Of a DNA stretch of 64,000 nt, positions 19,934 through 35,645 are shown one piece after another. The notes under the pieces are model-generated. The model saw only the letters and a list, made by a program, of their open reading frames with translations, was not told the origin of the DNA and did no database searches. Each line of letters opens with the position of its first letter. Within the stretch, counting starts at the first letter, position 1. The position numbers were made by a program, and so were the translations under genes. Source of the DNA: Sulfuricurvum kujiense DSM 16994. Its GTDB lineage: Bacteria; Campylobacterota; Campylobacteria; Campylobacterales; Sulfurimonadaceae. Where the stretch lies: assembly GCF_000183725.1 (NCBI RefSeq), contig NC_014762.1, forward strand, positions 1,116,001 through 1,180,000, read 5' to 3'.

Positions 19934-19959
19934 AGGGTGTCCTTGAAAAAGTATTTTAT

Positions 19960-20015: not shown

Positions 20016-21995
20016 TTAGAATTTGTAGCCGAGAGTAGCGAAAAATTCGCGTCCTTCAGTCGGGAAACCCAAATCGTATTGATAAAATTTATCGGTAAGA
20101 TTTTTGATTCCCACTTCCGCCGTGACGTTTGCCGTCGGTTTATAGATCGCTTTGAGATCGAACGTCGTGAAGGTCGGGCTGATGATATACGAATTGTCCG
20201 CTATTTGATCGTAGGCTCCTTTTCTAAATTTCATATCGCCATAGAGTGCAATATTTGCTCCTACATCGACTTGGGAGTAGGCAAAAAGTTGATGACGCGG
20301 TACATCGGTCCGTTTGATACTGGCATCGGTACGGTTTTTGACGGAGGTATAGGTGTAGTTTCCGCCCGCTTCGAGAGTATCGGATTTATAGCTTAGCTCG
20401 GTCTCGATACCGCGATGGTAGAAACTTCCGACGTTTTGATTTTGGTAAAAGCTCGGATTCGGAGCATAGAGTGTTTGTTGTATAGCATCGTCGACCCGTG
20501 TAAAAAAGCCGTTAAGTCGGGTTGAGAAGAGGCCGAAGTTTTTTTGGTAACCGAGCTCGTAATGGGTAGCCGTTTCGTTATCGAGTTCCGGATTAGGGTA
20601 AAGGGGCGGGATTTTAAGGGTTCGGCTATAGCGGTCTTTCATGGAGGGCATATAGGTTTTACGCGCGATACTGGCGCGGATTTTGGACGTTGAATCGGGT
20701 GAATAAACGACTGCCGCTTCGGGATTGAAAGAACTTTGCGTCTCCAGACTCAGAGCGCTGGCCAAGGTCGGATTGGTGTCGTAAATTTTGTCCGCATCGC
20801 GGCGGTCATAACTTACACCGCCGAGAATCTGCCATTGTGAAGAGAGGGTATAGACATCTTCGAGACCGACGGAGAGGGTGTGGTCTTCATAATTTTCGGT
20901 AAGGGTTTCATGGCTGGTGGCTTTGTTGATGTCATACCCTTTGTGGACATCTTTTTTATAATTGAGTGCAGCACTCAGGAAATGTTTTTCCAACTCGATA
21001 CCGTATTCGAGCCGTCCGCCGTAGCTGTAGTCGTCGTATTTGCTTTTAAAGGTCGAACCGAACGAGTTGAACGTCGAATAGGTGTTATTGGCATACGAAT
21101 AGAGTGAGTTTTCAAACGTATCGTAATAAGCGAGGGCTTTGATGTAGCCGTTGCCTAGATTTTTCTGTCCTGTGATAAAGACGGACTCTTTATCCCAGTA
21201 CGGCCAATCCCAATAGCGGACGCTGTTATAGACGGGATTTGTGCTCGGCGGCTGCTGTTTCTCACCGTTTTGGTTCGAGTAACCGATGGCGATTTCACTG
21301 CCGTCATCGGCGATGTATCCGGTTTTAAAACTGATTTTATAATCTTCGGTAGCGGAGCGAAGACGATCCCCCTCCGGCTGTGAAGCGCTCCCTGAATAAT
21401 CATCGCTCAGGCGGAAATGGTTTTGATCGCTATATACGGCTCCGAGCTGGGCATAGAGATGGTCTTGGCGTGTACCGAGATTAAGCGAAGCGGTTTTACG
21501 GGAGAGTGCGGTATCGCTATCGAGAACCATTCCCACTTTGATTTCGCCCTCCAGAGGTTTGGTAGGACGTTTGGAGATGATATTGATAACGCCTCCCATT
21601 GTATTGGCTCCGTACGCAACGGATGAAAATCCTTTTGAAACATCGATTTGGGCAATATCGCTTGTCAGGAAACGGTCATAATCAAAGTTTCCGTCATAGG
21701 GAACATACACCGGAATACCGTCGATGAATACGCCGACCCGTTTTGCATCAAATCCGCGGATACTGAGTGTCGCTTCATTGCGTGCCCCCATCATACTCAT
21801 GCTGACGCCGCTGATATTATTGAGCGCGTCGGCGACGGTTTCGCTGTTTTGCTGCGCAATGGTCTCTGCGCTCATCGTCTGTTCCAGAGGACTCTCTTCG
21901 AGCGGGGTATTAAGGACGTTGACCTGTCCCAGAGTAAAGGTGTCTGCCAGCACCGCGGAAGCGGCTAGAGAGATCAGCAACAGATGTTTTTTCAT
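20016..21995 (-). CDS. TonB-dependent outer-membrane receptor (receptor 1)
   Basis: A 659-residue TonB-dependent receptor. A signal peptide (about 1-17) is followed by a possible TonB box (F-T-L-G-Q-V-N-V). The plug domain (about 40-150) has S-I-R-G-F and Y-G-A-N-T-M-G-G-V-I-N-I, and the beta-barrel ends in the expected terminal Phe. BtuB/FecA-like receptors bring scarce ligands across the outer membrane with proton-motive energy. It is the last gene of the operon that begins with receptor 2 at 25727, 15 bases after the monooxygenase gene. The ligand is unknown; the ModE-type control of the operon suggests a Mo or W species. Confidence 0.9.
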   Translation of the reverse strand: MKKHLLLISLAASAVLADTFTLGQVNVLNTPLEESPLEQTMSAETIAQQNSETVADALNNISGVSMSMMGARNEATLSIRGFDAKRVGVFIDGIPVYVPYDGNFDYDRFLTSDIAQIDVSKGFSSVAYGANTMGGVINIISKRPTKPLEGEIKVGMVLDSDTALSRKTASLNLGTRQDHLYAQLGAVYSDQNHFRLSDDYSGSASQPEGDRLRSATEDYKISFKTGYIADDGSEIAIGYSNQNGEKQQPPSTNPVYNSVRYWDWPYWDKESVFITGQKNLGNGYIKALAYYDTFENSLYSYANNTYSTFNSFGSTFKSKYDDYSYGGRLEYGIELEKHFLSAALNYKKDVHKGYDINKATSHETLTENYEDHTLSVGLEDVYTLSSQWQILGGVSYDRRDADKIYDTNPTLASALSLETQSSFNPEAAVVYSPDSTSKIRASIARKTYMPSMKDRYSRTLKIPPLYPNPELDNETATHYELGYQKNFGLFSTRLNGFFTRVDDAIQQTLYAPNPSFYQNQNVGSFYHRGIETELSYKSDTLEAGGNYTYTSVKNRTDASIKRTDVPRHQLFAYSQVDVGANIALYGDMKFRKGAYDQIADNSYIISPTFTTFDLKAIYKPTANVTAEVGIKNLTDKFYQYDLGFPTEGREFFATLGYKF

Positions 21996-22010
21996 TTCAT
22001 TTCCTTAAGT

Positions 22011-23018
22011 TTAAATGTACGGTCGGATTTCGGTATTGAACCGAGAGAGCATCCACCGATTTTGACCGTAGTCGGTGGAAGAAGGTTTGAGAACAAGATG
22101 GATATTCGACAACTCCTTTTGAATGGTTTTAATCGTCTTTAGACACTCCTCAACACTGCCGATAATGCCGTTTTCGAAGAACTTTGCACCGTTGAAAAAC
22201 GCGTTGCGTTCTTCTAACAGGGCTTTATAGTTTTCCGGGTCAAAATGCGGCTGTATCTGTTCGGCTTGTGCGGCGCGCATACATTTGACAAAATGATCGA
22301 TGCCGGGGATCGCACCGCATTGCGCTTCATCTGTCGTTTCGGCGACGTAAAAGACCCGCATGACGACCATCTGCGGATCATGCCCGGCGATGGAGCGATA
22401 AAAGTTGCGTGCCTCGATGCATTCGTCCAACGAGGCTCCTTGTGACATCATCAGCCCGTACCCGTGTGTCGCGGCGAATGCGATGGTCTCTTCGGAAGAG
22501 AAGGTGGCTATATAAAAGGGAATCTCTTGTTGGAGAGGCAGAGGTGCGAGAAGGGCATTGTTGATGTGGACGAATTGCCCGTTATACTCTGTAGGTTTTC
22601 CGTGCAGCAGCAGATCGATCGATTCTACCGTTTCGAACATGACGATTTTAAGCTCCTCTTTGGAACGGACGAAATGTCGGGTATCGGGGGCAAATCCCCC
22701 CTTGGCAAAGCCGGCATTGATCCGTCCCTTTGAGAGGTTGTCCAGTACGGCGATACTTTCGGCGAGGCGAACCGGATGGTAAAACGGAGCCAGAAAGCCT
22801 GCCGTTCCCAAACGGATACGTCCGGTACTCGCTGCACAATAGGCTATCATGGAGGCGGGGTCGGGGATAACGCTAAAGGCATTGAAATGGTGTTCGCCGA
22901 ACCACGCTTCATCAAAGCCGAGTTCATCGGCCAATTCGACGAGATGAAGCTGTTCTAATATACTTTCATTGACGTTGCCCGAATAGTTTTCGGCCAGGCA
23001 AAATAATCCGATTTTCAT
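22011..23018 (-). CDS. Luciferase-like flavin-dependent monooxygenase
   Basis: A 335-residue LLM-class TIM-barrel flavoprotein related to bacterial luciferase, using reduced FMN or F420. Family features are L-A-D-E-L-G-F-D-E-A-W-F-G-E-H-H (split around residues 29-44), L-G-T-A-G-F-L-A-P (about 70-78), P-V-R-L-A-E (about 82-87) and I-N-A-G-F-A-K-G. The substrate is not predictable. It sits between a methyltransferase and a TonB-dependent receptor in one operon headed by a ModE-type operator. This suggests that it alters or releases a ligand of the imported metal; that is inference. Confidence 0.85.
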   Translation of the reverse strand: MKIGLFCLAENYSGNVNESILEQLHLVELADELGFDEAWFGEHHFNAFSVIPDPASMIAYCAASTGRIRLGTAGFLAPFYHPVRLAESIAVLDNLSKGRINAGFAKGGFAPDTRHFVRSKEELKIVMFETVESIDLLLHGKPTEYNGQFVHINNALLAPLPLQQEIPFYIATFSSEETIAFAATHGYGLMMSQGASLDECIEARNFYRSIAGHDPQMVVMRVFYVAETTDEAQCGAIPGIDHFVKCMRAAQAEQIQPHFDPENYKALLEERNAFFNGAKFFENGIIGSVEECLKTIKTIQKELSNIHLVLKPSSTDYGQNRWMLSRFNTEIRPYI

Positions 23019-23027
23019 ACCATGCCT

Positions 23028-23645
23028 TTATTTGGTAATCACGGCCCAAAAGCCGCTTTCGTCGTCGATGATCTGATATTCGGAGGGTTTGAGCGATGCA
23101 AGAATTTCCGGCAGGGCTTCGCGTTCAGGCTGAATTCGATCTTTAAACGGGCTGCGCCAGTCGGGGTTGCGTTCACTCATCGTTGCAATAATTGTCTCGC
23201 GCAGTTTTGCATTGCCGAATCCGCCGCCGATGTATGCCATCCCTCCGGGCTTTAGAATACGCAGTATCTCGCTGTAGGCCTTATGCCAGTCATCCCAAAA
23301 AGGAGATGATCCGCGGCTGATGACGAGATGAACATCTTCATCCGGCAAGGGAATAGCATGTATATCACCGCAGACTAACGCACTGCGTTCTAACAGATTG
23401 TTAGTAAAGGTGTAGCCGAATACCAGATCGAGCATCTCTTCGGATTGGTCAAAAAAAGTGATGTGCAAATCGGTTATTTTTGCCATTGCGATACCGAGAG
23501 CTCCTGTGCCGCATCCGGCATCGAGGCATCGCCCCTCGGTGATGGAGGTAACATTTTTAATCTGCTCGGCGATTACGGGATAGATCGGAGCGAATACTTC
23601 ACGGACAATACAGTCGAAACTTTGGGGATTGGTAGCGCCTTTCAT
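23028..23645 (-). CDS. Class I SAM-dependent methyltransferase in the receptor operon
   Basis: A 205-residue methyltransferase of the Methyltransf_11/25 type. Motif I is C-L-D-A-G-C-G-T-G-A-L (about 40-50), an acidic residue follows in F-F-D-Q-S (about 64-68), then G-D-I-H-A-I-P-L-P-D (about 93-102) and the motif III region L-K-P-G-G-M-A-Y-I-G. It is not closely similar to the methyltransferase at 19139-19933. It lies 12 bases after receptor 2 and 9 bases before the monooxygenase gene. The substrate is unknown. Confidence 0.82.
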   Translation of the reverse strand: MKGATNPQSFDCIVREVFAPIYPVIAEQIKNVTSITEGRCLDAGCGTGALGIAMAKITDLHITFFDQSEEMLDLVFGYTFTNNLLERSALVCGDIHAIPLPDEDVHLVISRGSSPFWDDWHKAYSEILRILKPGGMAYIGGGFGNAKLRETIIATMSERNPDWRSPFKDRIQPEREALPEILASLKPSEYQIIDDESGFWAVITK

Positions 23646-23657
23646 ACTCGACCTCCT

Positions 23658-25727
23658 TTAGAAAACCATGCTCAGTTCTAAACCGAGCGTGCGCCCTCGA
23701 TCATAGTAATACCCCGTAACGTAACGGGTCGCATAGTGGTCATTGTTTAGATTGCGTCCATACAGTTTGCCGGTAAAGGTATAGTTTTTATATTTGAAAT
23801 CTTTGGCGATATTGGCATCGATACGGTTGTAATCACCCAAATCGGCATACAACGTACCGATAGGGCTTGCAGAAGTTTGCCATCCCGACGTGTACTTATA
23901 AGAGAGATTGGCGCGGTAGTCATCCCATGAATGCGATACGATAGCCGTTATACCGTCTTCAGGAGACGAATAGCCGATCGCATCGGTGCTCACGCCGTTT
24001 GTTGCCGTTTCATTGCTAAGCATGTGGGTCCATGCAAACTGATAGTTTGTCCCTTGTGCAATATCCCCTTTGATCGCAAGCTCGATACCGCGGCGGTGAA
24101 CGTCTGATTCGGTATAGTAATAATAAAGATTGCCGTCCGTATCGGTATAGGTGTTTGTCGTCGCTGTTTTTTGGTTTTTGGTATCGATATCAAACCAAGT
24201 GAAGGTCGGATTAAAGAACGGAATTAACCGGGCTTCAAGCGCTAGTTCGATCCGATCTTGCTTTTCGGAATGGAGGGGAACGCCGTTTTGGGTTCTGAGA
24301 TCAAAATCGCCTGATGTCCCTTCACTTCCGTGAAAATATCGGGCATTTGTATTCAATATCTCGTTAATTTTCCAGCGCGCTCCGAGTGCGATCACTTCGG
24401 CAGGTGCCATATCGACGTCATTGTTAGCGGCATCTTTGGCTGAGCTGGTACTGGAGTTGTCGATGTGTTTGACGTCACGGCGGTATCCTGCATCCAGAAT
24501 AACATCGCCATTGAAAAGTTTTTGCTCGATCGAGGCTGAGTATCCTGTGACGGTAGTGTCATAGCGGTTGTAGGTACTGCTGAGGTTAGGTCCGAATCCT
24601 TCCGAATCGGTGATCTGCCCTCCAAGTTGAATCAGTGTATCCCCAAAACGGGCATTATGTCTGAGGCTATAGCCTTTTGTTTTCTCATCATAGTGCCGTG
24701 TCGATTTCGTCGCATTGGCAAAGTTTTCATTATGTTCATTTTGTTCATACTCGGTTTTGAATGCGGAAAAGAGAGTTGTATGGGATTCATTCCACTGCAT
24801 ACTCATATCGGTAGAGAAAACGGATGTTTTCAGAGGATCATAATACCATTTTGCACTGTCCAATCCGCCGCTTAGGGTTATACCCCGCTGCATTTCAAAG
24901 CGTCCGCTGTCTTTATATCCCATCATGTTCAGACTAAAGCGTCCGAAATTGATCCCTCCCGAGATCATGCCCGAATCGGCATCGCTGCCGTCAAACCAGC
25001 TCTCTTTGCTCGGACGGTCATATCGAGAGATTAGCCCGCCGATGTAGCCGTTTAATCCTGAAGCCGCGGAACCTAACCGTGTTCCGACATAGAGACTTTC
25101 GCCGTTTGCGCTGGGCTGTGATACGGCCTGTTCGAGATATCCGGTGATGAGTCCCTCAGTTTTTTTAGGCTGTTTGGTACGAATGACGATAAATCCGGTA
25201 TTCAAACCTGAACCGCTGTTTGAAGCCCCGATACCGATGGAGGGAGCTATGGCGAGTGCAGTGGAACCGCGAATAATCTGAATTTCTTCGATAGCGCTTA
25301 AGGGGATGTTTTGAAGGATTCGGCTCACAGAGGGAGGCAAAATAGCACCGTCAAGCATATATGTAATATTGCCTCCGCCTCTCATTTCCAAGCTGTATGG
25401 ACTTCTACGCCCCTGATAGGTTAGTTCTAAGCCGTCGGCTTTGCCCAATAAATCAAATATATCTTTTGGGGCATAAGCCGCAATCTCTTTTTGAGTCATT
25501 ACCTGCGTACCGAATTGTGCGGTGGATTCGACACGGTAAAGATTGGTGACGCTGTCTGGTTTCAGATCATCGCGCTCAACGCTCTGCGGTACTGAGACAT
25601 GGATCGGCTCCAACGCTTTTGTGCTCCCCGTATCCGCTTCAGCAAAAGCGAATGAGGGAATAATAGCTGCTGCGGCAAATAAACTGAGGACAGCGTGTTT
25701 TGAATATACGATTTTTGTAACGTTCAT
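23658..25727 (-). CDS. TonB-dependent outer-membrane receptor (receptor 2)
   Basis: A 689-residue receptor. A signal peptide ends near A-F-A-E-A (about 30), a TonB-box-like E-P-I-H-V-S-V follows, and the plug domain spans about 70-185 (M-R-G-G-G-N-I-T-Y-M-L-D-G). The barrel ends in M-V-F with terminal Phe. The plug is unusual in its run of Gly/Ser (S-N-S-G-S-G-L-N) where the common G-x-x-x-x-G-G-V-I-N motif is expected. The gene heads an operon with a methyltransferase, the monooxygenase and receptor 1. A perfect-core ModE-type operator sits 38 bases upstream. Confidence 0.9.
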   Translation of the reverse strand: MNVTKIVYSKHAVLSLFAAAAIIPSFAFAEADTGSTKALEPIHVSVPQSVERDDLKPDSVTNLYRVESTAQFGTQVMTQKEIAAYAPKDIFDLLGKADGLELTYQGRRSPYSLEMRGGGNITYMLDGAILPPSVSRILQNIPLSAIEEIQIIRGSTALAIAPSIGIGASNSGSGLNTGFIVIRTKQPKKTEGLITGYLEQAVSQPSANGESLYVGTRLGSAASGLNGYIGGLISRYDRPSKESWFDGSDADSGMISGGINFGRFSLNMMGYKDSGRFEMQRGITLSGGLDSAKWYYDPLKTSVFSTDMSMQWNESHTTLFSAFKTEYEQNEHNENFANATKSTRHYDEKTKGYSLRHNARFGDTLIQLGGQITDSEGFGPNLSSTYNRYDTTVTGYSASIEQKLFNGDVILDAGYRRDVKHIDNSSTSSAKDAANNDVDMAPAEVIALGARWKINEILNTNARYFHGSEGTSGDFDLRTQNGVPLHSEKQDRIELALEARLIPFFNPTFTWFDIDTKNQKTATTNTYTDTDGNLYYYYTESDVHRRGIELAIKGDIAQGTNYQFAWTHMLSNETATNGVSTDAIGYSSPEDGITAIVSHSWDDYRANLSYKYTSGWQTSASPIGTLYADLGDYNRIDANIAKDFKYKNYTFTGKLYGRNLNNDHYATRYVTGYYYDRGRTLGLELSMVF

Positions 25728-25765
25728 TGTTTACTCCTTAAGATGTGAATCTTTTTGTGATTTAA

Positions 25766-25786
25766 TGTATCAAATTTGATATAACG
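25766..25786 (-). promoter_or_regulatory. ModE-type operator upstream of receptor 2
   Basis: The plus strand reads TGTATC-AAATTT-GATATAACG. The centre TATCAAATTTGATA is a perfect 14-base palindrome, and the right flank TAACG completes the ModE-like half-site. This is the most symmetrical member of the family and lies 38 bases before the receptor start at 25727. Confidence 0.85.
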
Positions 25787-25799
25787 GTATCTAAAACGT

Positions 25800-26777
25800 T
25801 TAGCCCCTGTACCCAGGGAAGAAAAGGGTATTAAACCGTTTTACCTCCTGATCGATCGGTTTTATCAGATCGGGGTTAAACGAGTGGATAAGCCATCGTA
25901 TCCCGAGCAGCCGCATAAATGAAGGGGGCCGTGTAATATAATTGAACGGAGTGTTCGGGACGCTCAAAACCCGCCCGGTTTTTACGGCACGAAGAGATTG
26001 CCACTGCGGGTTTGTTCGAACGGATGAAGCGAAAGATGGTTCCATCGCAACAATAACATCGGGATCGGCCAGCATAATGGTTTCCAGTGATATTTTTTCC
26101 ATTCCGTAGTTGGAAGACATTTTGCACTCTAGGGCATTTTTCGCACCGCTGTAGGTGAAAGGTTCGAGGTGAAACGAGCCGTCGCATTCACTCGATAAGC
26201 CGTCAAGCCCTTCGGCAAAGTAGTAGCGTATATCTTTTCGTTTATCGAGTTTCGGCTGAAGCGATCGGATGAGCCCCAGCGTCTCTAGGGTATAGGAGAC
26301 GAGCTCTTGGGCGCGTTTGGTATTTCCCGTAAGTTTCCCGTAGAGTTGGAACTGGGTGACTAAATCGTTGATCGATTCGTTATTGACCATCAGTACGGGG
26401 ATACCGAGCGCACTCAATTTTTTTAGTTGGGTTTCGGCGCCGGTCGCTTTTCCCCACATCAGTATGACATCCGGTTTAACGGAAGCCAGTACTTCAACAT
26501 TAGGGGTGTTCCCTTGGCCGAAAAAACCGCCGGCTACCGGTTTGGATGCGGCGATACCGGCGTAGGGCTTTTGATCTTCTTTAAAAGGGAAATTGAGTGC
26601 GGCGATCAGGGATGGATCGAATGCTAAAACGCTCATTGTCATCGGCGGCGATGCCGCATAGATTTTGGTCACGCGTTCAGGGATTGTGACGACTCTCCCG
26701 TAATCATCAGTAATCGTTCTGGCGTGTGAGGATACGGATAGGATAAAAACGGCAATGAGAAAAATCACAATTTTCAT
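25800..26777 (-). CDS. Class III periplasmic binding protein (paralogue 1)
   Basis: A 325-residue FepB/BtuF-type binding protein with a Sec signal peptide (about 1-19) and no lipobox. Two lobes are joined by a long helix; motifs include Y-G-R-V-V-T-I-P near the start and R-P-P-S-F-M-R-L-L-G (about 285-294). The central segment Y-F-A-E-G-L-D-G-L-S-S-E-C contains a Cys, repeated 20 residues later (A-L-E-C), and is shared with the protein at 30821-31843. It ends the operon with its ATPase and permease (4-base overlap). MolA of Haemophilus shows that this fold can bind molybdate or tungstate. Confidence 0.87.
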   Translation of the reverse strand: MKIVIFLIAVFILSVSSHARTITDDYGRVVTIPERVTKIYAASPPMTMSVLAFDPSLIAALNFPFKEDQKPYAGIAASKPVAGGFFGQGNTPNVEVLASVKPDVILMWGKATGAETQLKKLSALGIPVLMVNNESINDLVTQFQLYGKLTGNTKRAQELVSYTLETLGLIRSLQPKLDKRKDIRYYFAEGLDGLSSECDGSFHLEPFTYSGAKNALECKMSSNYGMEKISLETIMLADPDVIVAMEPSFASSVRTNPQWQSLRAVKTGRVLSVPNTPFNYITRPPSFMRLLGIRWLIHSFNPDLIKPIDQEVKRFNTLFFPGYRG

Positions 26778-27565
26778 GAAATTCCTTTGTTAAAGATGGG
26801 AAGACATCGCGTATGGGTGTCATGGGTGATGAGATCGGCTTCGATCCCGTAGACGTCACGGATCATGGAAGGGGTAATGACGTCATCGGGGCTTCCATCG
26901 GCAATGATCTTTCCGCCGTTCATCACCGCAACGCGGGTGGAGACCAGGAGGGCATGATCGGGGTAATGGGTCGTTTTGAGAAAGGTATATCCCTGTTCAC
27001 TGAGACGGACGATCAGTTCCAGAAGCCGGATCTGGTTTCCGTAATCTAGCCCCGATACCGGTTCGTCCATGATAAAGGTATCGACACCCTGTGTCAGTGC
27101 TCGTGCGAGAAGAACCATCTGTTTTTGCCCGCCGCTGAGCTGCCCGAAAGGACGGTTGGCTAAATCGGAAATTCCGACTCTCTCGAGCGATTCGCGGGCG
27201 ATGGTGTGATCACCTGCGGAAGGGGCGGCAAAAAAACCGAGCTTCGATACCCGACCCATGATTACCATCTCCAATACGCTGTAGTTGAACGGCACGTTAT
27301 GGTACTGCGGAATGTAGGCGATATGCGACGCGATCTCGCGGTGCGAATAGCGATGAAGCGATTTCTCATGGAGCCATATTTCACCGCGCTTTGCGCGGAT
27401 GAGTTTGAGGATAAGACGGATCAGCGTGCTTTTGCCGCATCCGTTTGGCCCCAGCAGACTGACTACTTCTCCGCGTCGGAGGGTGAAATCGACACCCTCG
27501 AGTACCGGACGTGTCGGATAAGAGAAATGGAGGTCGTTGACCGTAATTATCGGTGTTAGTTCCAT
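26774..27565 (-). CDS. FecE/BtuD/MolC-type ABC ATPase
   Basis: A 263-residue ATPase of the class II (BtuD-like) importer group. Walker A is G-P-N-G-C-G-K-S-T (about 39-47), the signature L-S-G-G-Q-K-Q-M near 143, Walker B F-I-M-D-E-P (about 164-169) and the H-loop in T-T-H-Y-P-D. The H-Y-P-D and Y-I-P-Q patterns are typical of siderophore/cobalamin-type ATPases, and also of MolC. It overlaps the permease gene by 10 bases and the binding-protein gene by 4 bases. The transported species is inferred from regulation. Confidence 0.9.
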   Translation of the reverse strand: MELTPIITVNDLHFSYPTRPVLEGVDFTLRRGEVVSLLGPNGCGKSTLIRLILKLIRAKRGEIWLHEKSLHRYSHREIASHIAYIPQYHNVPFNYSVLEMVIMGRVSKLGFFAAPSAGDHTIARESLERVGISDLANRPFGQLSGGQKQMVLLARALTQGVDTFIMDEPVSGLDYGNQIRLLELIVRLSEQGYTFLKTTHYPDHALLVSTRVAVMNGGKIIADGSPDDVITPSMIRDVYGIEADLITHDTHTRCLPIFNKGIS

Positions 27566-28575: not shown

Positions 28576-28583
28576 TACTGCCC

Positions 28584-30824
28584 TTAAAATTTTAGATTGA
28601 TGCTGCCAAACAGTCCGAAAGGGGCACCGCTCTGATACGTGCTTGCCGTACCGGTTGCCGCTAGAAAATTGTCGGCGGCGTTGATGGTTGAAATATACTT
28701 CTCATTCGTAAGATTGGTTGCCGTAAGACGAAAGAGGGCATTACGTGAACTCATGAACTGTGCCATACGATACGTCAGGTCAAAATCGACAAGGGTATAG
28801 GCATCCACTTTTTGGGTATTCGCGACGTCACCGTAGCGGCTGGAGCTGTATCGGGCACTCGGAGTAAGGGTCCAATCGCCGATGTGATACGAAAGGGCCG
28901 CTTTGGCCATGTACTTCGGTGCATCGGGAAGCTGTTTGCCGTCGGTATCGACCGTAGTCGTCGCGCCGCTTTTGAAATCCTGGGTAAATTGATAGCGGTT
29001 ATAGGAGAGCCCCAGTAAAAGTTCCAACTGTTCATTGATCGGACCGTAGGCAGAGAACTCCGCACCGTAGCCTAACGCGTCACCGACGTTAGCGGGATAG
29101 TTGACGCCGAATGACGGATCGTAGATATTGGCCTGTTTGTTTTGGACGAATGAGACGAAAAGGCTCGGATTGAGGGTAAGTCCTCCTATCGTCGTTTTAA
29201 CCCCTACGTCGATATTGTCGGAAAGTTCAAGATCGAGTTTGTCCCACAGCTGTTGCAAGGTGACATTTTTGGCTTTGAACGTATCACGGTTTGAGATATA
29301 GGTTGGAAACAGATTGACATCGAATCCGTAGGTTCGCGAATAATCGATATAGGCGGTTGTTGATGGGGTAAACGCATATCCGAGATAGAGCGATGGGATA
29401 AAGGTATGAAACGTTTTCGCATCGACGCTTGCCCACGGATCGATTGCGGTTGAGTCAATCGCTGCATTATAATCGGGATTGGCTGCTCCCGTTTGATTGC
29501 CGAATGTATGGCTTTCCAGTGCTCCGAGTTTGAAAGATTGCAATTGGGCTCCGGCGACATAGTTGAAATGATCCAGCGTACCGCTGATTTGGGCAAACGG
29601 TGCTTGGAGAATATGGTAGTCGTTGTCGGATAGGACGGCATACCCGTCAAACACCAAATTCCCGTTGACCACTTTGTATTTGATCTGATCGCTCGGCGGC
29701 CCGGGAGGGAGCTGTTTGTGGTACCAATATCCGATTTCGGCTTTCAGCGCTTCGGAAAATTCGTGATCGTACGCGGCGGTTGCACCGTAGAGATCGTGCT
29801 CCATTCGCCAGTCCATAACACGCTGTTTGGCCGCGGCAGTATCAAATTTAGAGAACCAATAATCCCCTTCGTCTTTTTTATAATACGGTTTGATCGTGAG
29901 GGTGTCCGATGAAGTCGGGCGGTATTCGAACTCTCCCAGCAATGCCGTTGTCAGGAAATGTTGTTTGTTCCAGTCGTAATAATCGACATCGTTGGATACG
30001 GTCGGTTTGGCGGTTGCAAAATCTTTTGTGAAATTTGATCCGAGATCTTTTGCTTCGTCATACGAGAGGTTGTAATAGTTGTGGTGATCGTCCGAGTTGC
30101 GGATAGCGGTGATTTTTGCTTTAAATGCATTGTTAGGAGTATAGGTGAGCCCCAATGTTCCGTTGAGACGTGTAAGATCGCCTGAACCTTTGTTTTTATC
30201 GCTGCTAAGATGGGAAAATGAGCCGAAAATCGCGACGTCTCCGATTTTACCGGAGTCTAATCGGACAAAGGTACGCATAAAATCATCGCTACCGAACGAT
30301 TGAGATACTTCGGCACCTGCGCGGGAACGTGCCGAGAGGAGATTCATATCGACTTTTCCGATAAGAGATGAGAACCCGAGGTTTTTATCCGCAGGAAGAT
30401 ACCCTTTGAGAAGGTCGATAGAAGAGACGTTTTCCATATCGAGAAGCTGTTTTCCGCCTCCGGGATTGCTGGAGATCGGCATGCCGTCGATCATATAAAC
30501 CCCTCCCGGACCGCTTTGGCTTTTGCCGCGGATTCGGATAGGATCGTGATAGGAGGGTTCGTTGGAACCGGCCTGATCGACCGGGGTAAAATTGACGGAA
30601 GGCGAATAGGCGATAACGCTATAGGGGTTCATGTTGGCCTGCGTACTGAGCGTCGCAATGCTTTTGGCACTGAATGTCTGATTAGACCCGCTTATATTGG
30701 AATCTGAGATCATGGAAGTGCCGTCATCAGCAGCATCACTGACGATGATCCGTTCAATCCCGAGAGGATCAGCGGTGAGTACCGCACATGCGGCGAGAGA
30801 AAGGACAAGTGGTGAAAGTTTCAT
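28584..30824 (-). CDS. TonB-dependent outer-membrane receptor (receptor 3)
   Basis: A 746-residue receptor with a signal peptide (about 1-18) and a plug domain (about 45-165) showing R-I-R-G-K, Y-M-I-D-G-M-P-I and I-G-K-V-D-M-N. The barrel is long and Tyr/Asp rich, ending in I-N-L-K-F. The plug lacks the usual R-G-F/Y and instead has R-G-K-S-Q-S-G-P-G-G. It is distinct in length and sequence from receptors 1 and 2. It sits between binding-protein paralogue 2 (4-base overlap) and the permease gene, so it is the likely outer-membrane partner of this importer. Confidence 0.9.
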   Translation of the reverse strand: MKLSPLVLSLAACAVLTADPLGIERIIVSDAADDGTSMISDSNISGSNQTFSAKSIATLSTQANMNPYSVIAYSPSVNFTPVDQAGSNEPSYHDPIRIRGKSQSGPGGVYMIDGMPISSNPGGGKQLLDMENVSSIDLLKGYLPADKNLGFSSLIGKVDMNLLSARSRAGAEVSQSFGSDDFMRTFVRLDSGKIGDVAIFGSFSHLSSDKNKGSGDLTRLNGTLGLTYTPNNAFKAKITAIRNSDDHHNYYNLSYDEAKDLGSNFTKDFATAKPTVSNDVDYYDWNKQHFLTTALLGEFEYRPTSSDTLTIKPYYKKDEGDYWFSKFDTAAAKQRVMDWRMEHDLYGATAAYDHEFSEALKAEIGYWYHKQLPPGPPSDQIKYKVVNGNLVFDGYAVLSDNDYHILQAPFAQISGTLDHFNYVAGAQLQSFKLGALESHTFGNQTGAANPDYNAAIDSTAIDPWASVDAKTFHTFIPSLYLGYAFTPSTTAYIDYSRTYGFDVNLFPTYISNRDTFKAKNVTLQQLWDKLDLELSDNIDVGVKTTIGGLTLNPSLFVSFVQNKQANIYDPSFGVNYPANVGDALGYGAEFSAYGPINEQLELLLGLSYNRYQFTQDFKSGATTTVDTDGKQLPDAPKYMAKAALSYHIGDWTLTPSARYSSSRYGDVANTQKVDAYTLVDFDLTYRMAQFMSSRNALFRLTATNLTNEKYISTINAADNFLAATGTASTYQSGAPFGLFGSINLKF

Positions 30825-31843
30825 CGGTTGGCTCCTAATAGGTTTTTGATTTGTTCGTCACTGAGTTTGACATGTAAGAAAAGGTCATAAAACTCTTTGG
30901 TTCGCTGATTCAGATCGGCTTTGAACTCTTTGGGATGGAAGAGATGGGCGAGCCATTGAATACCGAGTACCCGCATAAACGAGGGAGGGCGGTCGACCCA
31001 GTTAAACGGCTGAACCGGAACCAAATAGATACGCCCGCTTTTGAGCGCACGCAGACTTTTCCACATCGGATCGGTGATGAGATCGTTATACACCGCACGG
31101 TTCTGGACGATGATGACATCGGGGTTATAGGCGAGCAGGGTTTCAAAGCTTATTTTTTCAAGTCCCAATATGCCGCTTTGTTGACAGGAGTGGACATTGC
31201 GTCCGCCGGCAAAATTCATCGCTTCGACATGAAACGAGCTGTCGCATTCGGTAGAGAGACCGTCCAACCCTTCCGCATAGTAGTAGCGGACCGGTTTGGC
31301 TTTGGAGACGCTTTTTTGGACATCTTTGATGATTTTCTCGGAATACGCTGCGAGTATTTCGCCCCGTTTCGACTCGCCGATCGCATTTCCGGCGAGGCGG
31401 AATGCACGCGGCATATCGTTAATATGGCGAAAAGGGATCAGGTAAGACGGTATCGCTGTTTTTTCAATCTCTTTGGCAACGGTTTGCACCAGCATATCGT
31501 CTTGCCATACCAGTACCAGCTGAGGCTTGTATTTCATCAGGGTTTCGAGGTTAATGCTCTGGCCTCCGCCGTGAAACGATCCTATGACCGGCAACGAGAG
31601 AAACCGTTTATTCAAAAACTGCTCATCGGCGCTGTTATTCGGATTTCTGGCTTTAAAATTCAGCCCTATCATCTTGTCCGGATTGAGCGTATAGAGCAGA
31701 TAGTTCATCGGAGGAGATGAACCGAAAACATGGTCGGTCTGGTCGGGCAATATGACGGGATGACCGTCCATGTCGTTAAGAGTCTTGGCGTGAAGCGTAA
31801 ACGCAATCAACGCTATACTCAGTATCTGTATAAGATGTTTCAT
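30821..31843 (-). CDS. Class III periplasmic binding protein (paralogue 2)
   Basis: A 340-residue paralogue of the protein at 25800-26777, with a Sec signal peptide (about 1-19) and no lipobox. Shared blocks are Y-Y-A-E-G-L-D-G-L-S-T-E-C-D-S-S-F-H (about 188-205), a second Cys 20 residues after the first, and R-P-P-S-F-M-R-V-L-G-I-Q-W-L (about 288-301). Two binding proteins for one permease suggests two ligands or two affinities. It overlaps receptor 3 by 4 bases and follows tonB by 9 bases. Confidence 0.87.
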   Translation of the reverse strand: MKHLIQILSIALIAFTLHAKTLNDMDGHPVILPDQTDHVFGSSPPMNYLLYTLNPDKMIGLNFKARNPNNSADEQFLNKRFLSLPVIGSFHGGGQSINLETLMKYKPQLVLVWQDDMLVQTVAKEIEKTAIPSYLIPFRHINDMPRAFRLAGNAIGESKRGEILAAYSEKIIKDVQKSVSKAKPVRYYYAEGLDGLSTECDSSFHVEAMNFAGGRNVHSCQQSGILGLEKISFETLLAYNPDVIIVQNRAVYNDLITDPMWKSLRALKSGRIYLVPVQPFNWVDRPPSFMRVLGIQWLAHLFHPKEFKADLNQRTKEFYDLFLHVKLSDEQIKNLLGANR

Positions 31844-31852
31844 GGGAGTTCC

Positions 31853-32644
31853 TTAAGATTTTGAGAGTGAAAATACGATAGGTATTTTCAAATAGGCTGT
31901 TTTGGAAAGGCTAGGATAATCGCCGCTCAACGCCAAAACGGTTTGAATCGCTTTGGAGTCCAGTAGATGACTGCCGCTCGAGGAAAGTATTTCGGCTTTT
32001 TCCACCAATCCGTCCGGTTTGAGGACAAAGGATACGATTACCGTCCCCTCTATGCGCAATTTGCGTGCAACAGAGGGGTAGGTAAGGGAGTTTTCAATCA
32101 TAGCTCGTATGCGTCCCAGTGTTGCCCCATTGATATCTTCCGATGAAACGTTCGGTTTTGGTAATTCGTTCGTTTGTCTAAGTGTAGATGCATCATGAGG
32201 AGAATCATTTGCGATGGGGTTAAGAGCCGAATGAAGCGGCTCTTTTGATTGGATATCCGATGGGGCAACACCGGGACGCACAGGAGAAGTTTGAGGCGCT
32301 GACGCCTCGGGAGAAGCTGCCGGAGTGAGTGGCAGCCTCTCCTGAGAAGTCACATGACGGGGAATTGTATCGGTTTTTGATCGTAAAGTTTTCACAGATT
32401 CGGCATGGTTGATGATTGGTTTTTGTTGATCGGATATAACATCAGCAGGTGCATAGTCGGCTAACGAGATCAGGATCGGCTTCTTCTTCGGCAACTCTGA
32501 GGGCTGGTGGAGTGAAAAATAGAGTGCCGTACTCAGCACGGTTGCATGCACGAAAAGTGATGCGGCGAACGATTTGGCTTTTAAGGCAAAATCGTTTTGT
32601 TGTATCTTAAATGATATAACGATGGGATCAAAAAAAATCATCAT
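31853..32644 (-). CDS. tonB: TonB family energy-transducing protein
   Basis: A 263-residue TonB-like protein. It has one N-terminal membrane segment (about residues 25-45) and a long Pro/Ser/Glu-rich periplasmic linker. The C-terminal TonB domain (about 178-263) has L-T-Y-P-S-V-A-R-K-L-R-I-E-G-T-V and F-V-L-K-P-D-G. No exbB or exbD accompanies it, so it must share those from elsewhere. The ATG at 32644 overlaps the globin stop (ATGA). The ModE-type operator at 32601-32621 lies inside its first codons, so a downstream non-ATG start cannot be excluded. Confidence 0.85.
   Translation of the reverse strand: MMIFFDPIVISFKIQQNDFALKAKSFAASLFVHATVLSTALYFSLHQPSELPKKKPILISLADYAPADVISDQQKPIINHAESVKTLRSKTDTIPRHVTSQERLPLTPAASPEASAPQTSPVRPGVAPSDIQSKEPLHSALNPIANDSPHDASTLRQTNELPKPNVSSEDINGATLGRIRAMIENSLTYPSVARKLRIEGTVIVSFVLKPDGLVEKAEILSSSGSHLLDSKAIQTVLALSGDYPSLSKTAYLKIPIVFSLSKS
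32601..32621 (-). promoter_or_regulatory. ModE-type operator within the start of tonB
   Basis: The plus strand reads TGTATC-TTAAAT-GATATAACG, matching all 15 fixed positions of the cluster motif. It lies 23-43 bases inside the assigned tonB reading frame and downstream of the globin gene. It could control an internal promoter or block elongation, or the tonB start could be wrong. Confidence 0.75.
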
Positions 32645-33201
32645 TTTCCCCAAATCGCGCTGTAGGGGTGGCGTTCGATCGGCGCAACAGTGGTTCTGCG
32701 ATTAATCATACGGATAGAGAGCGGTTCAATCCAGTTCCAAAACTCTTCAACGCAGCCTGAGGGCATCTTTAAATCTTTAATTGTTTTTTTGTACATCATC
32801 AGCCATATTTCACGCCCTTTTTCATCGATCGTAATATGAAAATGACGCATCCGAAGGGCAGGGTGCCCATGTACCGGTGTGTAGCTTTTTTCACCGCCGA
32901 GGGCTTCGACGAAAAAATCGGCGGTTTTCTCGGTCGCGTGGGCAAATGCCGCATCATCGGAGGGGAATAGATCGCCGATTGCGCTTTTGCGCAATAACTC
33001 ATGATGATAACGCACCATTTTGCGGATATTCTCTTCTCCCCATTGCTGAATGAGGATGATGGTTGGAAACGGAACTTCGGGATACACAAAATCGATTTTG
33101 GCTTCGGCCGTATGGGGTGTCATACTTGCAGGTTCGAACGGCTTAGTCCCGCACGCGCTAAATAGGGATACCGGTTTTCCCTCAGACATTATGTGTGTCA
33201 T
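32641..33201 (-). CDS. Truncated globin-like haem protein
   Basis: A 186-residue protein with a central truncated-globin domain (about residues 45-155). It shows F-F-V-E-A-L-G-G, then Y-T-P-V-H-G-H-P-A-L-R-M-R-H-F (the proximal His region, about 108-122) and E-I-W-L-M-M-Y-K-K-T with the G8 Trp of group II globins. N- and C-terminal extensions of about 45 and 30 residues are unusual. Such globins bind oxygen or nitric oxide. AGGAT precedes the ATG at 33201. It is the first gene of the operon globin-tonB-binding protein-receptor 3-permease-ATPase-binding protein. Its link to metal import is unclear. Confidence 0.75.
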   Translation of the reverse strand: MTHIMSEGKPVSLFSACGTKPFEPASMTPHTAEAKIDFVYPEVPFPTIILIQQWGEENIRKMVRYHHELLRKSAIGDLFPSDDAAFAHATEKTADFFVEALGGEKSYTPVHGHPALRMRHFHITIDEKGREIWLMMYKKTIKDLKMPSGCVEEFWNWIEPLSIRMINRRTTVAPIERHPYSAIWGK

Positions 33202-33229
33202 TTTTTATCCTTTTTTTGTGGTATTGATA

Positions 33230-33300
33230 GAACATCAGGGGAGACGACAGGCATTTGAATTAACCGCAGACAAACACTCCCGTCGTCTCTACTCATGTTC
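33230..33300. repeat. Long imperfect inverted repeat in the globin operon leader
   Basis: The 19-base arm at 33230-33248 (GAACATCAG...AGACGAC) and the inverted arm at 33282-33300 match at 16 of 19 positions, with a 33-base centre. The right arm read on the minus strand begins GAACATGAG and ends AGACGAC. It lies 29-99 bases before the globin ATG. It could be an RNA leader hairpin, a two-site operator, or the ends of a small degenerate mobile element. Confidence 0.6.
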
Positions 33301-33315
33301 CATTTGTTTTGATAC

Positions 33316-33395
33316 GCTAATTTGGGCAAAGCTCAAATTAGCGGCAAGGACAATCTTGTCCTTTGCAATCCCCTAAAGCTACCGGCATGTGCCGG
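33316..33395. terminator. Three successive hairpins between the porin and globin genes
   Basis: Stem 1 pairs GCTAATTTGGGC (33316-33327) with GCTCAAATTAGC (33331-33342), a 12-bp stem with one G-T wobble. Stem 2 pairs AAGGACAA (33346-33353) with TTGTCCTT (33356-33363). Stem 3 pairs CCGGCA (33382-33387) with TGCCGG (33390-33395). They lie just downstream of the leftward porin gene, so at least stem 3 may terminate it. The stretch CCCCTAAAGCTAC (33370-33382) resembles part of the repeat at 13298-13364. Confidence 0.5.
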
Positions 33396-33415
33396 AGATT
33401 TAAAAAATACGTATT

Positions 33416-34786
33416 CTAGAAACGGTAATTGATTTCCAAACGCATTTCCTGATTCGATGTTTCAGCTGTCGCTAAAGCTGTCTTATCATTATTTTGATCC
33501 ATCAAACGGGCTTTGAGTTCCGTCCCTTTCCAGTCTCCGGCAAGTTTGTAGAGAATATCGAAATTCCATTGGTGGGTATCCCCGTTTCCGAAGGCTCTAT
33601 CCGTCATGCTTTGATACGGTTTTTTGCTCGGATCACGATCGTAATAGGCATAGCTGAGCATCGTACTCATACCCGCTACTATGGCATCAAAGTCATAATC
33701 AAACTCTGCTTTATATGCCGTAGTATTGGCATTCCAATCGGTTTGCGTCATGCTTCGCGTATAGCCTTGGGTCGGGAATCCGCGCCACGGGGCAATCATA
33801 TCTGCACCGCTGTCCGTGTGTGATGTCGCTAGCAGAAATTTTGCTGCACGGTAATTTGCCGTAGCTCTTAAAGCCCAAAGATTGGTATCGACGCTGTTAT
33901 CACTGTCGTAGTTATTGGTTTTAGGCAAGATAATATCCCCGGCCCCTTTGTCGTATTGCTGCATATATAAACCGCCGAGTCCGAGGATCACATCACCCGC
34001 TTCAAACGCGTAATTGGCTTCCAGACGAAGATGATCTACCAGATCCGGCCAATGCATGACCCATCCTTCAAGTTCAAGGTTGTCGAATGAACGGTTTTTG
34101 ATACCGAAAACGGTGACATCCGGAGCGTCTCCGTGTCTATGAGTAGCGGTACCGTAGCCGGTATCGTAATACGAACTGATTTTAGAAGGAGTATCGAGCG
34201 TTTCGGCCATATTTCCGAAATAGTCCATACCGCGTTCTTTGATTTTATCGATATAGTCCAACTGAACGGTAGTGTTAAGGAGATCATTTGAAACAAAATC
34301 AACCCCTTCGAAAGCAACCGGGATCATCTTGGTGTCGTTGGGCGACATCCACGGATTACTTACCAGCATGCGGCCCGCTCTGATTTTGCTTTTGGCAATG
34401 TCGTATTGCAAATAGGCCTGTGCCAAAACGGCGTATCCGTCGCCATAATCGTAGGCAGAACCCGGGCCTCGTGCAAACAGGTCTTTGGAGGTATTGGCAT
34501 TTTTGCCGTCTTCCGCATCTGTCCATCCACCCGGATTTTGAGTGGTATAAAGACCTGTTCCGAAACTAAAACCGTACAATGGTGCTGTTTTATAGATCAA
34601 ACTTCCGCCGACGGCAAAGCCTGTTGCACTGTATTTTGCATCATTATCCCAATCGGTCACAAAATATTGGGCTCTGAGGCGCCCGTCAAGTTTTCCTTCT
34701 TTAAAAGCACTGACTAGATTATCCGCTGCCGATGCAAATACTGCCGATCCCAAGAGCAATGCTGCTGCTAAACTAAGTTTTGTCAT
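33416..34786 (-). CDS. OprD-like outer-membrane porin
   Basis: A 456-residue outer-membrane beta-barrel. A signal peptide (about 1-21, ending A-S-A-A) is followed by an OprD-family start (L-D-G-R-L-R-A-Q-Y-F) and A-G-R-M-L-V-S-N-P-W, and it ends in the porin-type I-N-Y-R-F. OprD porins pass small solutes through a basic-lined channel. A ModE-type operator sits 10 bases upstream of its ATG, between modA and the tonB operon. Diffusion of an oxyanion such as molybdate is therefore a plausible task. The ribosome binding site is AAGGAT. Confidence 0.82.
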   Translation of the reverse strand: MTKLSLAAALLLGSAVFASAADNLVSAFKEGKLDGRLRAQYFVTDWDNDAKYSATGFAVGGSLIYKTAPLYGFSFGTGLYTTQNPGGWTDAEDGKNANTSKDLFARGPGSAYDYGDGYAVLAQAYLQYDIAKSKIRAGRMLVSNPWMSPNDTKMIPVAFEGVDFVSNDLLNTTVQLDYIDKIKERGMDYFGNMAETLDTPSKISSYYDTGYGTATHRHGDAPDVTVFGIKNRSFDNLELEGWVMHWPDLVDHLRLEANYAFEAGDVILGLGGLYMQQYDKGAGDIILPKTNNYDSDNSVDTNLWALRATANYRAAKFLLATSHTDSGADMIAPWRGFPTQGYTRSMTQTDWNANTTAYKAEFDYDFDAIVAGMSTMLSYAYYDRDPSKKPYQSMTDRAFGNGDTHQWNFDILYKLAGDWKGTELKARLMDQNNDKTALATAETSNQEMRLEINYRF

Positions 34787-34796
34787 TTTATATCCT

Positions 34797-34817
34797 TGTA
34801 TATTTTTTGATATAACG
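34797..34817 (-). promoter_or_regulatory. ModE-type operator upstream of the porin gene
   Basis: The plus strand reads TGTATA-TTTTTT-GATATAACG, matching 14 of 15 fixed positions of the cluster motif. Its near edge is 10 bases before the porin ATG at 34786, next to the ribosome binding site, so a bound repressor would cover the transcription start. Confidence 0.8.
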
Positions 34818-34878
34818 CTATTGATTCAAAAATTCGACTGTCTATACCGCAAATGTGTCTCTGCCAAAGCAGAGCTGT

Positions 34879-35634
34879 TTATTTTTTCGGTAAGCCGTAT
34901 CCGCTCTCTTTTAATATGCTTTGTGCTTTGGCTGATGACATAAAACGTAAGAATTTTTTGGCAGCAATCTGGTTTTCAGGAGAGCCGTTTTTGAGACCTA
35001 CCATCGCCTGATCGATAGTGTTGTACGATTTTGGATCGACTTCGACCCATTTTCCGACATTTTTCATCTCAGGAGAGAGAACGATCGATTTTGCCATAAA
35101 GCCGACATCGACCGCTTTGGTCGTGACATAGCTTCCCACTTGCGAAATCGATTCGGCGGTGACGATTTTTGAGGTTACCGCATCGGCTACTTTATAAAAG
35201 CGCATCGTATTCATCGCTTCTATTCCGTAAGGGGCGGTTTTAGGGTTAGCGATGGCAATTTTCTTGACGGCCGGATTCGCTACGACTGTGACCCCTTTGG
35301 AGAGATCGACACCGGTATCGCTCCACAATACCAGCGTACCGTAGGCATAGACTTGAGCGGGAGTCGTAGTGTAACCGCCTTGAACCAGTTTTCCCGGAAA
35401 TTCTACATCCGCAGATAAAAAGGCATCATACGGAGCACCGCTCATAATTTGCTGAGTAAGTTTTCCCGATGCACCGGTGATGATTTTGACACCGATACCG
35501 CTCTCTTGGCTAAACGCTTTGGCAATATCGTTCACCGCATATTTCATGTTGGCCGCAGCGGCTACTGTAATCGTTTGAGCCGCAATGGCAGAGGCAAATG
35601 CCAATGAAGCAAGAACAAGCTTGAGTAATTTCAT
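34879..35634 (-). CDS. modA: Molybdate-binding protein ModA
   Basis: Periplasmic molybdate/tungstate-binding protein, 251 residues, with a signal peptide (about 1-18). Family signatures are V-A-A-A-A-N-M-K-Y-A (about 24-33), G-A-S-G-K-L-T-Q-Q-I (about 55-64), P-Y-D-A-F-L-S-A-D (about 69-77), and N-P-K-T-A-P-Y-G near residue 134. The motif pattern is that of classical ModA rather than WtpA or TupA. It is transcribed alone, about 15 kb upstream of the mod operon that encodes its permease and ATPase. Two ModE-like operators lie in its upstream region. Confidence 0.94.
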   Translation of the reverse strand: MKLLKLVLASLAFASAIAAQTITVAAAANMKYAVNDIAKAFSQESGIGVKIITGASGKLTQQIMSGAPYDAFLSADVEFPGKLVQGGYTTTPAQVYAYGTLVLWSDTGVDLSKGVTVVANPAVKKIAIANPKTAPYGIEAMNTMRFYKVADAVTSKIVTAESISQVGSYVTTKAVDVGFMAKSIVLSPEMKNVGKWVEVDPKSYNTIDQAMVGLKNGSPENQIAAKKFLRFMSSAKAQSILKESGYGLPKK

Positions 35635-35645
35635 CTTCTTTCCTT

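Follow-up and report, generated by a model that had tools for sequence, protein, structure and literature searches.

A predicted ModE-controlled, TonB-energised importer of molybdenum or tungsten of the Mol type beside ModABC in Sulfuricurvum kujiense

A gene cluster of the sulfur-oxidising bacterium Sulfuricurvum kujiense DSM 16994 (contig NC_014762.1, positions 1,116,001 to 1,180,000, i.e., G000:C4:1116001-1180000 within the 2.82-Mb genome; this 64,000-nucleotide stretch is referred to below as the window, and positions are given within it) appears, judging from sequence comparisons, to encode a Mol-type importer of molybdenum (Mo) or tungsten (W) that is controlled by ModE, energised by TonB and located beside ModABC. 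We assign this reading a probability of about 0.72, and the same estimate applies to the presence in the locus of two routes across the inner membrane and an energised one across the outer membrane. The original prediction, made from the DNA alone, placed three TonB-dependent receptors, a TonB, a class II ATP-binding cassette (ABC) importer with two binding proteins, a porin and ModA in one orientation between positions 20016 and 35634, and domain searches find all of these components. The run of genes, however, extends to position 16366 and includes a further methyltransferase (MT2), modD, a Mop-like gene, modB and modC, and the original inventory had passed over a globin, a luciferase-like monooxygenase and a methyltransferase within the span. 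Comparisons extending beyond the window bear out the proposed control by ModE, the similarity of the permease to MolB and the association with mod genes.

Gene composition of the cluster

The minus-strand run from 35634 to 16366 consists of the genes for ModA, an OprD-type porin, a globin, TonB, a first binding protein (SBP1), a first TonB-dependent receptor (TBDR1), a FecCD-type permease, an ATPase, a second binding protein (SBP2), TBDR2, a methyltransferase (MT1), a luciferase-like flavin monooxygenase (LLM), TBDR3, MT2, ModD, a small TOBE protein, ModB and ModC. From globin to modC, neighbouring genes overlap or are separated by less than 85 bp; modA and the porin gene lie just upstream of this part, and modE is located further upstream on the same strand.

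The FecCD-type permease (27556..28575; PF01032) has MolB (HI1471) of Haemophilus influenzae as its nearest solved relative: the search against solved structures gives 203 bits for MolB (2nq2, E-value 6e-59), followed by FhuB (159 bits, 2e-45), HmuU (155 bits) and BtuC (132 bits). Its partner is an ABC ATPase (26774..27565; PF00005). Both SBP1 (30821..31843) and SBP2 (25800..26777) are Peripla_BP_2 proteins (PF01497), for which the nearest solved structure is that of the periplasmic binding protein 4pag (E-values 3e-79 and 6e-53, respectively), followed by 4ovk, with MolA more remote (5e-16 for SBP1, with 3psa/3psh, and 2e-9 for SBP2); a binding-protein profile, A2, reaches MolA (3psa/3psh) at an E-value of 2e-27, behind 4pag, 4ovk and 4hn9. 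As far as the printed alignments go, the 4pag protein appears to be the product of L061:13472-14494, a gene from a modE-flanked locus.

All three predicted receptors contain plug domains. TBDR1 (28584..30824) and TBDR3 (20016..21995) match both the plug and the barrel profiles (PF07715 and PF00593), so that the original claim of three receptors stands with a reservation for TBDR2 (23658..25727): here Pfam detects only the plug (PF07715, 35.2 bits, cut-off 23.9), NCBIfam yields no match, and the AlphaFold model is poor (predicted local distance difference test, pLDDT, 49), and its barrel is therefore presumed. The TBDR2 model was discarded as evidence because of this low quality. For TBDR1 (pLDDT 76), the best Foldseek matches are TonB receptors, the nearest being PqqU/YncD, Fiu, PiuA and FhuA, with 12-17% identity in the best 50 rows; the fold therefore identifies a TonB receptor and says nothing firm about its substrate. 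TonB itself (31853..32653) is supported by PF03544 (59.9 bits, cut-off 24.6) and TIGR01352 (57.7, cut-off 27.1), and the OprD-family porin (33416..34786) by PF03573 (63.9 bits, cut-off 25).

On the molybdate side, ModA, ModB, ModD and the Mop (di-Mop) protein score above curated cut-offs, the first three at the equivalog level. ModA (34879..35634), the periplasmic molybdate-binding protein, reaches 166.1 bits with TIGR01256 (cut-off 62.5), and the permease ModB (17238..17912) reaches 237.8 bits with TIGR02141 (cut-off 182.6). The quinolinate-phosphoribosyltransferase-like protein encoded at 18294..19157 is identified as ModD rather than NadC, with 277.5 bits against TIGR01334 (cut-off 178.9) and 134.6 bits against the nadC model (cut-off 198.4). 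The short modC-type ATPase (16366..17241; PF00005), in which the TOBE domain is not matched, fails the ModC equivalog test (TIGR02142, 219.7 versus 285), and a TOBE/Mop-like protein is encoded by a separate small gene of the run (17902..18297; PF03459, 23.1 bits, cut-off 22.3). The molybdate-responsive regulator ModE (38903..39679, minus strand) combines a LysR-type helix-turn-helix domain (HTH_1, 36.4 bits, cut-off 26.6) with two TOBE stretches (71 bits, cut-off 22.3); it passes the NCBIfam Mop model (75.1, cut-off 55), narrowly misses ModE_repress (96.3 versus 98.5) and misses the NCBIfam equivalog PRK10676 by a wide margin (163.7 versus 369).

ModE-type boxes in the window and in the genome

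A ModE-type box is defined here as the E. coli-type pattern CGNTATAT-N8-ATATANCG with 14 scored positions (consensus from PMC545781). The box scan finds five sites with at least 11 of the 14 positions in the window, every one of them at the cluster, in agreement with the ModE-type operators of the original prediction. Two of these precede modA (35720..35743, 12/14, and 35643..35666, 11/14), one precedes the porin gene (34794..34817, 12/14), one falls where globin and tonB meet, within the 5' part of the tonB open reading frame (ORF) as listed (32598..32621, 12/14), and one precedes TBDR2 (25763..25786, 11/14). Weaker, 10/14 boxes are found before MT2-modD (19957..19980, with a single mismatch to the local consensus) and before the di-Mop gene (15747..15770).

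The number of boxes in the window was considered as the main argument and dropped, given that shuffled sequences yield 0.43 sites at 12/14 and 3.9 at 11/14, compared to 3 and 2, respectively, in the window; the 27 sites at 10/14 are near the chance expectation of 24.5. With counts not far above those in the shuffles, it is the placement of the boxes, together with the relatives, that carries the argument for ModE. Genome-wide, the generic box with at most 2 mismatches occurs at 16 places (9 for the reversed pattern), 3 of which are in the cluster (binomial P 1.7e-4). A scan with the local consensus detects 22 places with at most 2 mismatches (12 for the reversed pattern) and 6 with 0-1 mismatch, 5 of these in the cluster and the sixth inside a 402-amino-acid ORF; because this consensus was derived from the cluster, the scan is partly circular, and the generic box is the fairer measure.

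Relatives within Campylobacterota

A permease search of 397 genomes of the phylum identifies 197 with a match at an E-value of at most 1e-40. About 20 kb were fetched around 60 matches, chosen by the author down the match list, and divided by permease identity into L034-L053 (20 loci, 71-90%), L054-L074 (21 loci, 50-58%) and L075-L093 (19 loci, 39-51%), groups whose identities overlap at 50-51%. At least one of modE, modA, modD and di-Mop is present in 20 of 20, 14 of 21 and 1 of 19 loci, respectively (P 8e-9), or 34 of the 41 in the two higher-identity groups. The gene set also stands beside modE in other Campylobacterota, as expected under the original prediction, with modE inside the fetched stretch in 16/20, 12/21 and 1/19 loci.

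The boxes follow the same distribution. Scored at 12/14 or better, with the reversed pattern and dinucleotide shuffles (3 per locus) as controls, they number 62, 51 and 6 in the three groups; the reversed pattern occurs 4, 3 and 6 times, and the shuffles yield about 0.7 sites in each group. For the two higher-identity groups combined, this amounts to 113 versus 7 reversed, and for the lower 19 loci to 6 versus 6. Of the 41 higher-identity loci, 39 contain at least one box, compared to 3 of the 19 lower-identity ones. Of the 62 boxes in the closest group, 42 stand ahead of a gene for a globin, TonB, a methyltransferase, a binding protein, a porin, a receptor or a permease and 6 ahead of modA or modE; 11 have no annotated neighbour and 3 fall inside a gene. 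Of the 51 in the second group, 26 stand ahead of such non-mod genes of the cluster, one is shared, four have no assignment and three fall inside a gene. Boxes are present even where the fetched stretch lacks a mod marker (L063, L067, L069 and L070, with 14/14 sites in L063 and L070; likewise L125 and L132, which have no mod gene in the fetched stretch).

Conserved neighbours that have no counterpart in the gene set of the window, with families named from one typed representative each, include an ExbB-type family (20/41 loci) and an ExbD-type family (18/41). In the second group, a molybdopterin oxidoreductase family (typed representative in L055) is present in 8 of 21 loci and a molybdopterin-binding oxidoreductase family (typed representative in L066) in 6 of 21. 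As a side observation, at L055:2375-4651 and its neighbours, molybdopterin oxidoreductase, ferredoxin-type and NarJ-like families, each with a typed representative, adjoin the importer in second-group loci.

Relatives beyond the phylum

A permease profile scan of one genome per species, 84,980 species in all, detects at least 79 loci, some of which (L094, L106, L114, L117, L120 and L122 among them) come from genomes already counted above; a set of 28 loci from outside Campylobacterota is free of this overlap. Among the matches listed, mod genes or boxes also occur in Desulfuromonadia, another deltaproteobacterium, Rhodocyclus, Pseudothauera, Nitrobacter, Thiomicrorhabdus, Acidithiobacillus and one Fibrobacteres genome; the 79 loci contain 69 boxes versus 10 occurrences of the reversed pattern, and the 28 non-Campylobacterota loci, at about 50% identity or more, contain 23 versus 4 (14 of 28 loci versus 4). 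A box stands ahead of a receptor gene in L105, L115, L116, L125, L132 and L140, and on a plasmid of Paracoccus ferrooxidans an 11/14 box begins 93 bp ahead of the receptor start. Two weak ModE-type sites are found in a Methylosinus plasmid locus, and none of at least 11/14 in an Acinetobacter plasmid locus. In the archaeon Methanohalophilus (L143:6261-6284), a 12/14 ModE-like box, which may be due to chance, precedes the gene for the binding protein in a MolB-like cluster.

An RNA hairpin before the globin gene

The 214-bp gap between oprD and the globin gene contains a conserved, covarying RNA hairpin (33215..33309, minus strand), and the region 33220-33400 folds with a z-score of -6.6. A covariance model finds the hairpin in 7 of 101 genomes of the family, all from the genus of the window and with one site each (opposite-strand echoes excluded); in 6 of the 7 it lies directly past oprD and ahead of globin-tonB, and in the remaining one, which lacks the globin at this place, ahead of tonB. 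With strict filters, it is detected in 2 of the 397 genomes of the phylum, both permease-bearing members of the same genus, and it was not detected in the other cluster loci searched. Across the seven sequences, the 26 pairs are kept at 93%, the apical loop is invariant, and the covariation score is 0.234 versus 0.168 in shuffled alignments (reached in 1 of 500) and 0.071-0.115 in slid ones. Five pairs show two-sided changes (matched in 49 of 500 shuffles), and the variety of pair types is unremarkable (172/500). The model was built from three of the seven sequences, so that the alignment leans toward the structure; the covariation support is moderate. A search of the region against Rfam gives only chance-level matches and no family at threshold, and a riboswitch of a known family was ruled out on the same ground, with no match at the gathering score.

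The ligand and the accessory genes

The sequences of the binding proteins bear on what is carried. In SBP1, SBP2 and their relatives (21 sequences), the motif RPPSFM starting from Arg285, Glu199-Cys200, Cys220 and Tyr188 are invariant. Since the RPPSFM motif and the cysteine pair are missing from MolA and the alignment is remote, the ligand of MolA is not transferable to these proteins, and they may bind something other than bare molybdate.

Three kinds of accessory genes accompany the importer. The truncated globin (32641..33201; PF01152) matches PDB entries 4nk1/4nk2 at an E-value of 1e-47 and shows no variation at His120 and Trp133 in an alignment of 14 sequences; LLM (22011..23018) matches PF00296 with 188.7 bits and PDB 7bip at an E-value of 5e-25; and the two class I S-adenosylmethionine-dependent methyltransferases are MT1 (23028..23645; PF08241; PDB 3dlc, 6e-49) and MT2 (19139..19933; PF13649), for which a search against solved structures provides no clue to the substrate. 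The monooxygenase and the globin are each present in 9 of 18 Campylobacterota loci but in none of the loci from Bacillota (17), Thermodesulfobacteriota (12) and Methanobacteriota (5). Among proteobacterial loci, the monooxygenase is found in 2/6 alpha, 0/3 beta and 2/3 gamma, and the globin in 0/6, 0/3 and 1/3, respectively, the Acidithiobacillus locus having a globin without a monooxygenase. The methyltransferase is found in groups with and without these two genes, namely in 12/18 Campylobacterota, 8/12 Thermodesulfobacteriota, 3/5 Methanobacteriota and 1/17 Bacillota loci; some of the loci in these tallies are incomplete at their ends, and the absences are soft. The distribution of the monooxygenase and the globin, patchy in other oxygen-exposed groups, fits an oxygen-dependent step on the ligand, without proving it.

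A more specific and tentative reading, which we hold to be possible rather than probable, is that the cluster is a dedicated molybdophore system, the molybdenum counterpart of siderophore systems. The receptors and the MolB-like importer would bring in Mo or W as a complex with an organic or thio ligand. The methyltransferases and ModD, joined in some oxygen-exposed lineages by the flavin monooxygenase and the globin, would make, modify or break this ligand, releasing Mo. Such a system would be controlled by ModE and, in the genus of the window, additionally by the new structured RNA before globin-tonB.

Alternative explanations

Several observations weigh against the reading as an importer of Mo or W. 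In the second group, 17 of the 51 boxes precede mod genes (15 modE, 1 modD, 1 di-Mop). All four mod markers are missing in 7 of the 41 higher-identity loci (L063, L067 and L069-L073), of which L071 and L072 contain no box either and L073 a single distant one. The relatives are not independent, nine members of the second group belonging to one genus, the Sulfurospirillum group (code g28). Clostridial and archaeal relatives are mostly without a mod link, and in a FastTree phylogeny of 134 permeases the label "Mo-linked" (a mod marker or box in the locus) requires 22 changes, so that the Mo link does not define one clean clade. To these are added the features of the binding proteins missing from MolA, described above; the fact that the receptor models scoring in NCBIfam are of siderophore, haem or cobalamin types, all below cut-off; the Fur box assigned to the published Acidithiobacillus counterpart; and the distribution in the genus of the window, where nifH is present in 7 of 9 genomes and the permease in 2 of 9, with both present only in the genome of the window.

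One rival is the published view of the counterpart. A 2008 paper described a 13-gene "Fe-Mo transport cluster" of A. ferrooxidans beside nif, whose products include a pair of receptors, TonB, two binding proteins of the Fe type, a ModA-like protein and a truncated globin, and read it as a bifunctional Fe/Mo importer (PMC2631029); the globin gene has been assigned a Fur box (PMC2621215). This cluster is apparently homologous to the one analysed here. Under this explanation, the TonB/FecCD arm would import a ferric siderophore and ModA would bind molybdate for nitrogenase, the two being merely co-expressed. The association with nitrogenase is visible in Campylobacterota: nifH is present in 29 of the 42 genomes with a permease of at least 331 bits, compared to 46 of the 355 others (counts uncorrected for relatedness, with 3 of the 75 nifH genomes, one of these among the 29, below the curated cut-off), and in 3 of the 29 (G203, G373 and G378) nifH and the permease gene share a contig, at most 15 kb apart (binomial P 0.005). 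Three of the 42 genomes (G206, G237 and G373) are outside the fetched loci, and L072 and L073 of the second group are below 331 bits. The permease, however, is nearest to MolB and not to siderophore permeases, and 13 of the 42 permease genomes lack nifH. The E. coli-type Fur boxes are not specific, numbering 7, 8 and 6 in the three groups versus 3.3, 3.7 and 4.3 expected, slightly above the shuffles in all groups alike, although this consensus may not be that of the genus. Moreover, the related Acidithiobacillus locus L126 contains a 14/14 ModE box (L126:1451-1474) some 300 bp before the exbB ORF with which an exbB-tonB-globin-SBP-permease-ATPase run begins, so that Mo control is favoured in Acidithiobacillus, too. 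We consider the bifunctional explanation unlikely. Nitrogenase as the sole purpose of the system was rejected given the 13 permease genomes without nifH and the failure of nifH to predict the permease in the genus of the window; because of that mismatch, nitrogenase is at most one consumer among several. Excerpts of papers on methanogens cover Mo transport in nitrogen fixation and contain nothing on such an importer.

Import dedicated to tungstate, with the TonB/Mol arm supplying W for tungstoenzymes and ModABC supplying Mo, would be consistent with the finding that MolA binds molybdate and tungstate alike (PMC4031551), and side-by-side inner-membrane routes would permit such a division of labour. 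Nevertheless, ModA and ModB pass the molybdate models, and WtpB and TupB score lower on ModB, a result that concerns the ModABC arm, and the neighbouring enzymes and the nif link favour Mo, without excluding W; this option is quite improbable. An ordinary iron, haem or cobalamin uptake operon located by chance within a mod region is strongly disfavoured and seems very improbable. The homologous permease in the plasmid records inspected is automatically annotated as "iron ABC transporter permease", TBDR3 resembles haem receptors (best NCBIfam match TIGR01785, 194 bits, below the cut-off of 317), and a globin gene is present. However, neither the receptors, the permease nor the binding proteins reach the NCBIfam cut-offs for haem, siderophore or cobalamin, Rfam detects no riboswitch in the window at the gathering score, and both the mod link and the ModE boxes are found repeatedly in Campylobacterota and in several further groups but not at the lower-identity FecCD loci.

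Comparison with known systems

One of the closest known systems is MolBC-A of H. influenzae (HI1470-1472), whose MolB is, among solved structures, nearest to the FecCD-type permease of the cluster, and the predicted importer would work like MolBC-A with an added TonB outer-membrane stage. The H. influenzae HI1469-HI1475 set (modA, molABC, modD, salX, cysU) has modA, modD and further ABC genes as neighbours (PMC3928620), as is the case here. Mo-dependent repression of molB is reported in a source that names no repressor of molABC (PMC4031551), whereas control of the cluster by ModE is suggested by the boxes. In contrast to MolBC-A, the S. kujiense cluster also contains three TonB receptors, TonB, a porin, a globin, a monooxygenase and two methyltransferases, and its two binding proteins are only remotely related to MolA. 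With the E. coli-type ModABC/ModE system, the cluster shares ModA, ModB, ModE and the geometry of the box, but here modBC come last in a long run of genes that includes tonB. In the enterobacterial outer membrane, molybdate is thought to enter by diffusion through porins (PMC8264917).

The A. ferrooxidans cluster shares with the cluster analysed here the components listed above, and ModA and OprD are also in common with a ModA-OprD-CdfB gene set adjoining it (PMC2631029); the excerpted description includes a Fur box and mentions no ModE box, monooxygenase or methyltransferase. The original prediction had called a TonB route for Mo under ModE largely undescribed. The claim needs a qualifier because of the 2008 description of an apparently homologous Fe/Mo importer. 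Among the matches listed in a search confined to the open-access literature, no TonB-dependent Mo route under ModE appears besides the Acidithiobacillus work. The parts are of known kinds; as far as this search shows, the novelty consists in their combination under ModE, the breadth of this combination and the RNA hairpin.

Proposed mechanism

ModE negatively controls modABC (PMC8264917), and repression of the cluster under sufficient Mo is predicted by extension. At low cytoplasmic molybdate, ModE would leave the boxes before modA, oprD, tonB, TBDR2 and MT2-modD, permitting expression. The domain content suggests that the receptors would then capture a scarce Mo or W species outside the cell and transfer it to the periplasm in a TonB-powered step, where SBP1 and SBP2, by homology, would hand it to the MolB-like permease and its ATPase. 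The MolB permease is a dimer, and by analogy that of the cluster may be one as well. Free molybdate could follow a parallel route via the OprD-type porin to ModA-ModBC, and Mop proteins and ModD would handle Mo inside the cell. The monooxygenase and the methyltransferases most likely would modify or break down the ligand accompanying Mo.

Other features of the locus and the genome

The di-Mop (molbindin-like) gene (15841..16257, plus strand; TIGR00638, 134 bits, cut-off 55, two stretches) is divergent to the cluster and lies beyond the end of modC. The gap between modE and modA (36000-38784) contains two minus-strand ORFs, one without a family and one of DUF6414; in the relative L094, modA starts about 200 bp past modE. 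A second, distant FecCD permease in the same genome (G000:C4:31203-32021; 31% identity) is perhaps part of an ordinary iron importer.

Implications

In the textbook view, molybdate diffuses through porins. If the reading as a ModE-controlled, TonB-energised importer is correct, many Mo-dependent microbes, nitrogen fixers included, would actively capture scarce Mo; among the matches listed, homologous loci with mod genes or ModE boxes occur in Campylobacterota, Desulfuromonadia and several proteobacterial classes. The prediction is directly testable, given the clear operators and an apparent binding-protein ortholog with a solved structure (4pag). It would also imply that many database entries labelled "iron ABC transporters" or "siderophore receptors" carry the wrong name.

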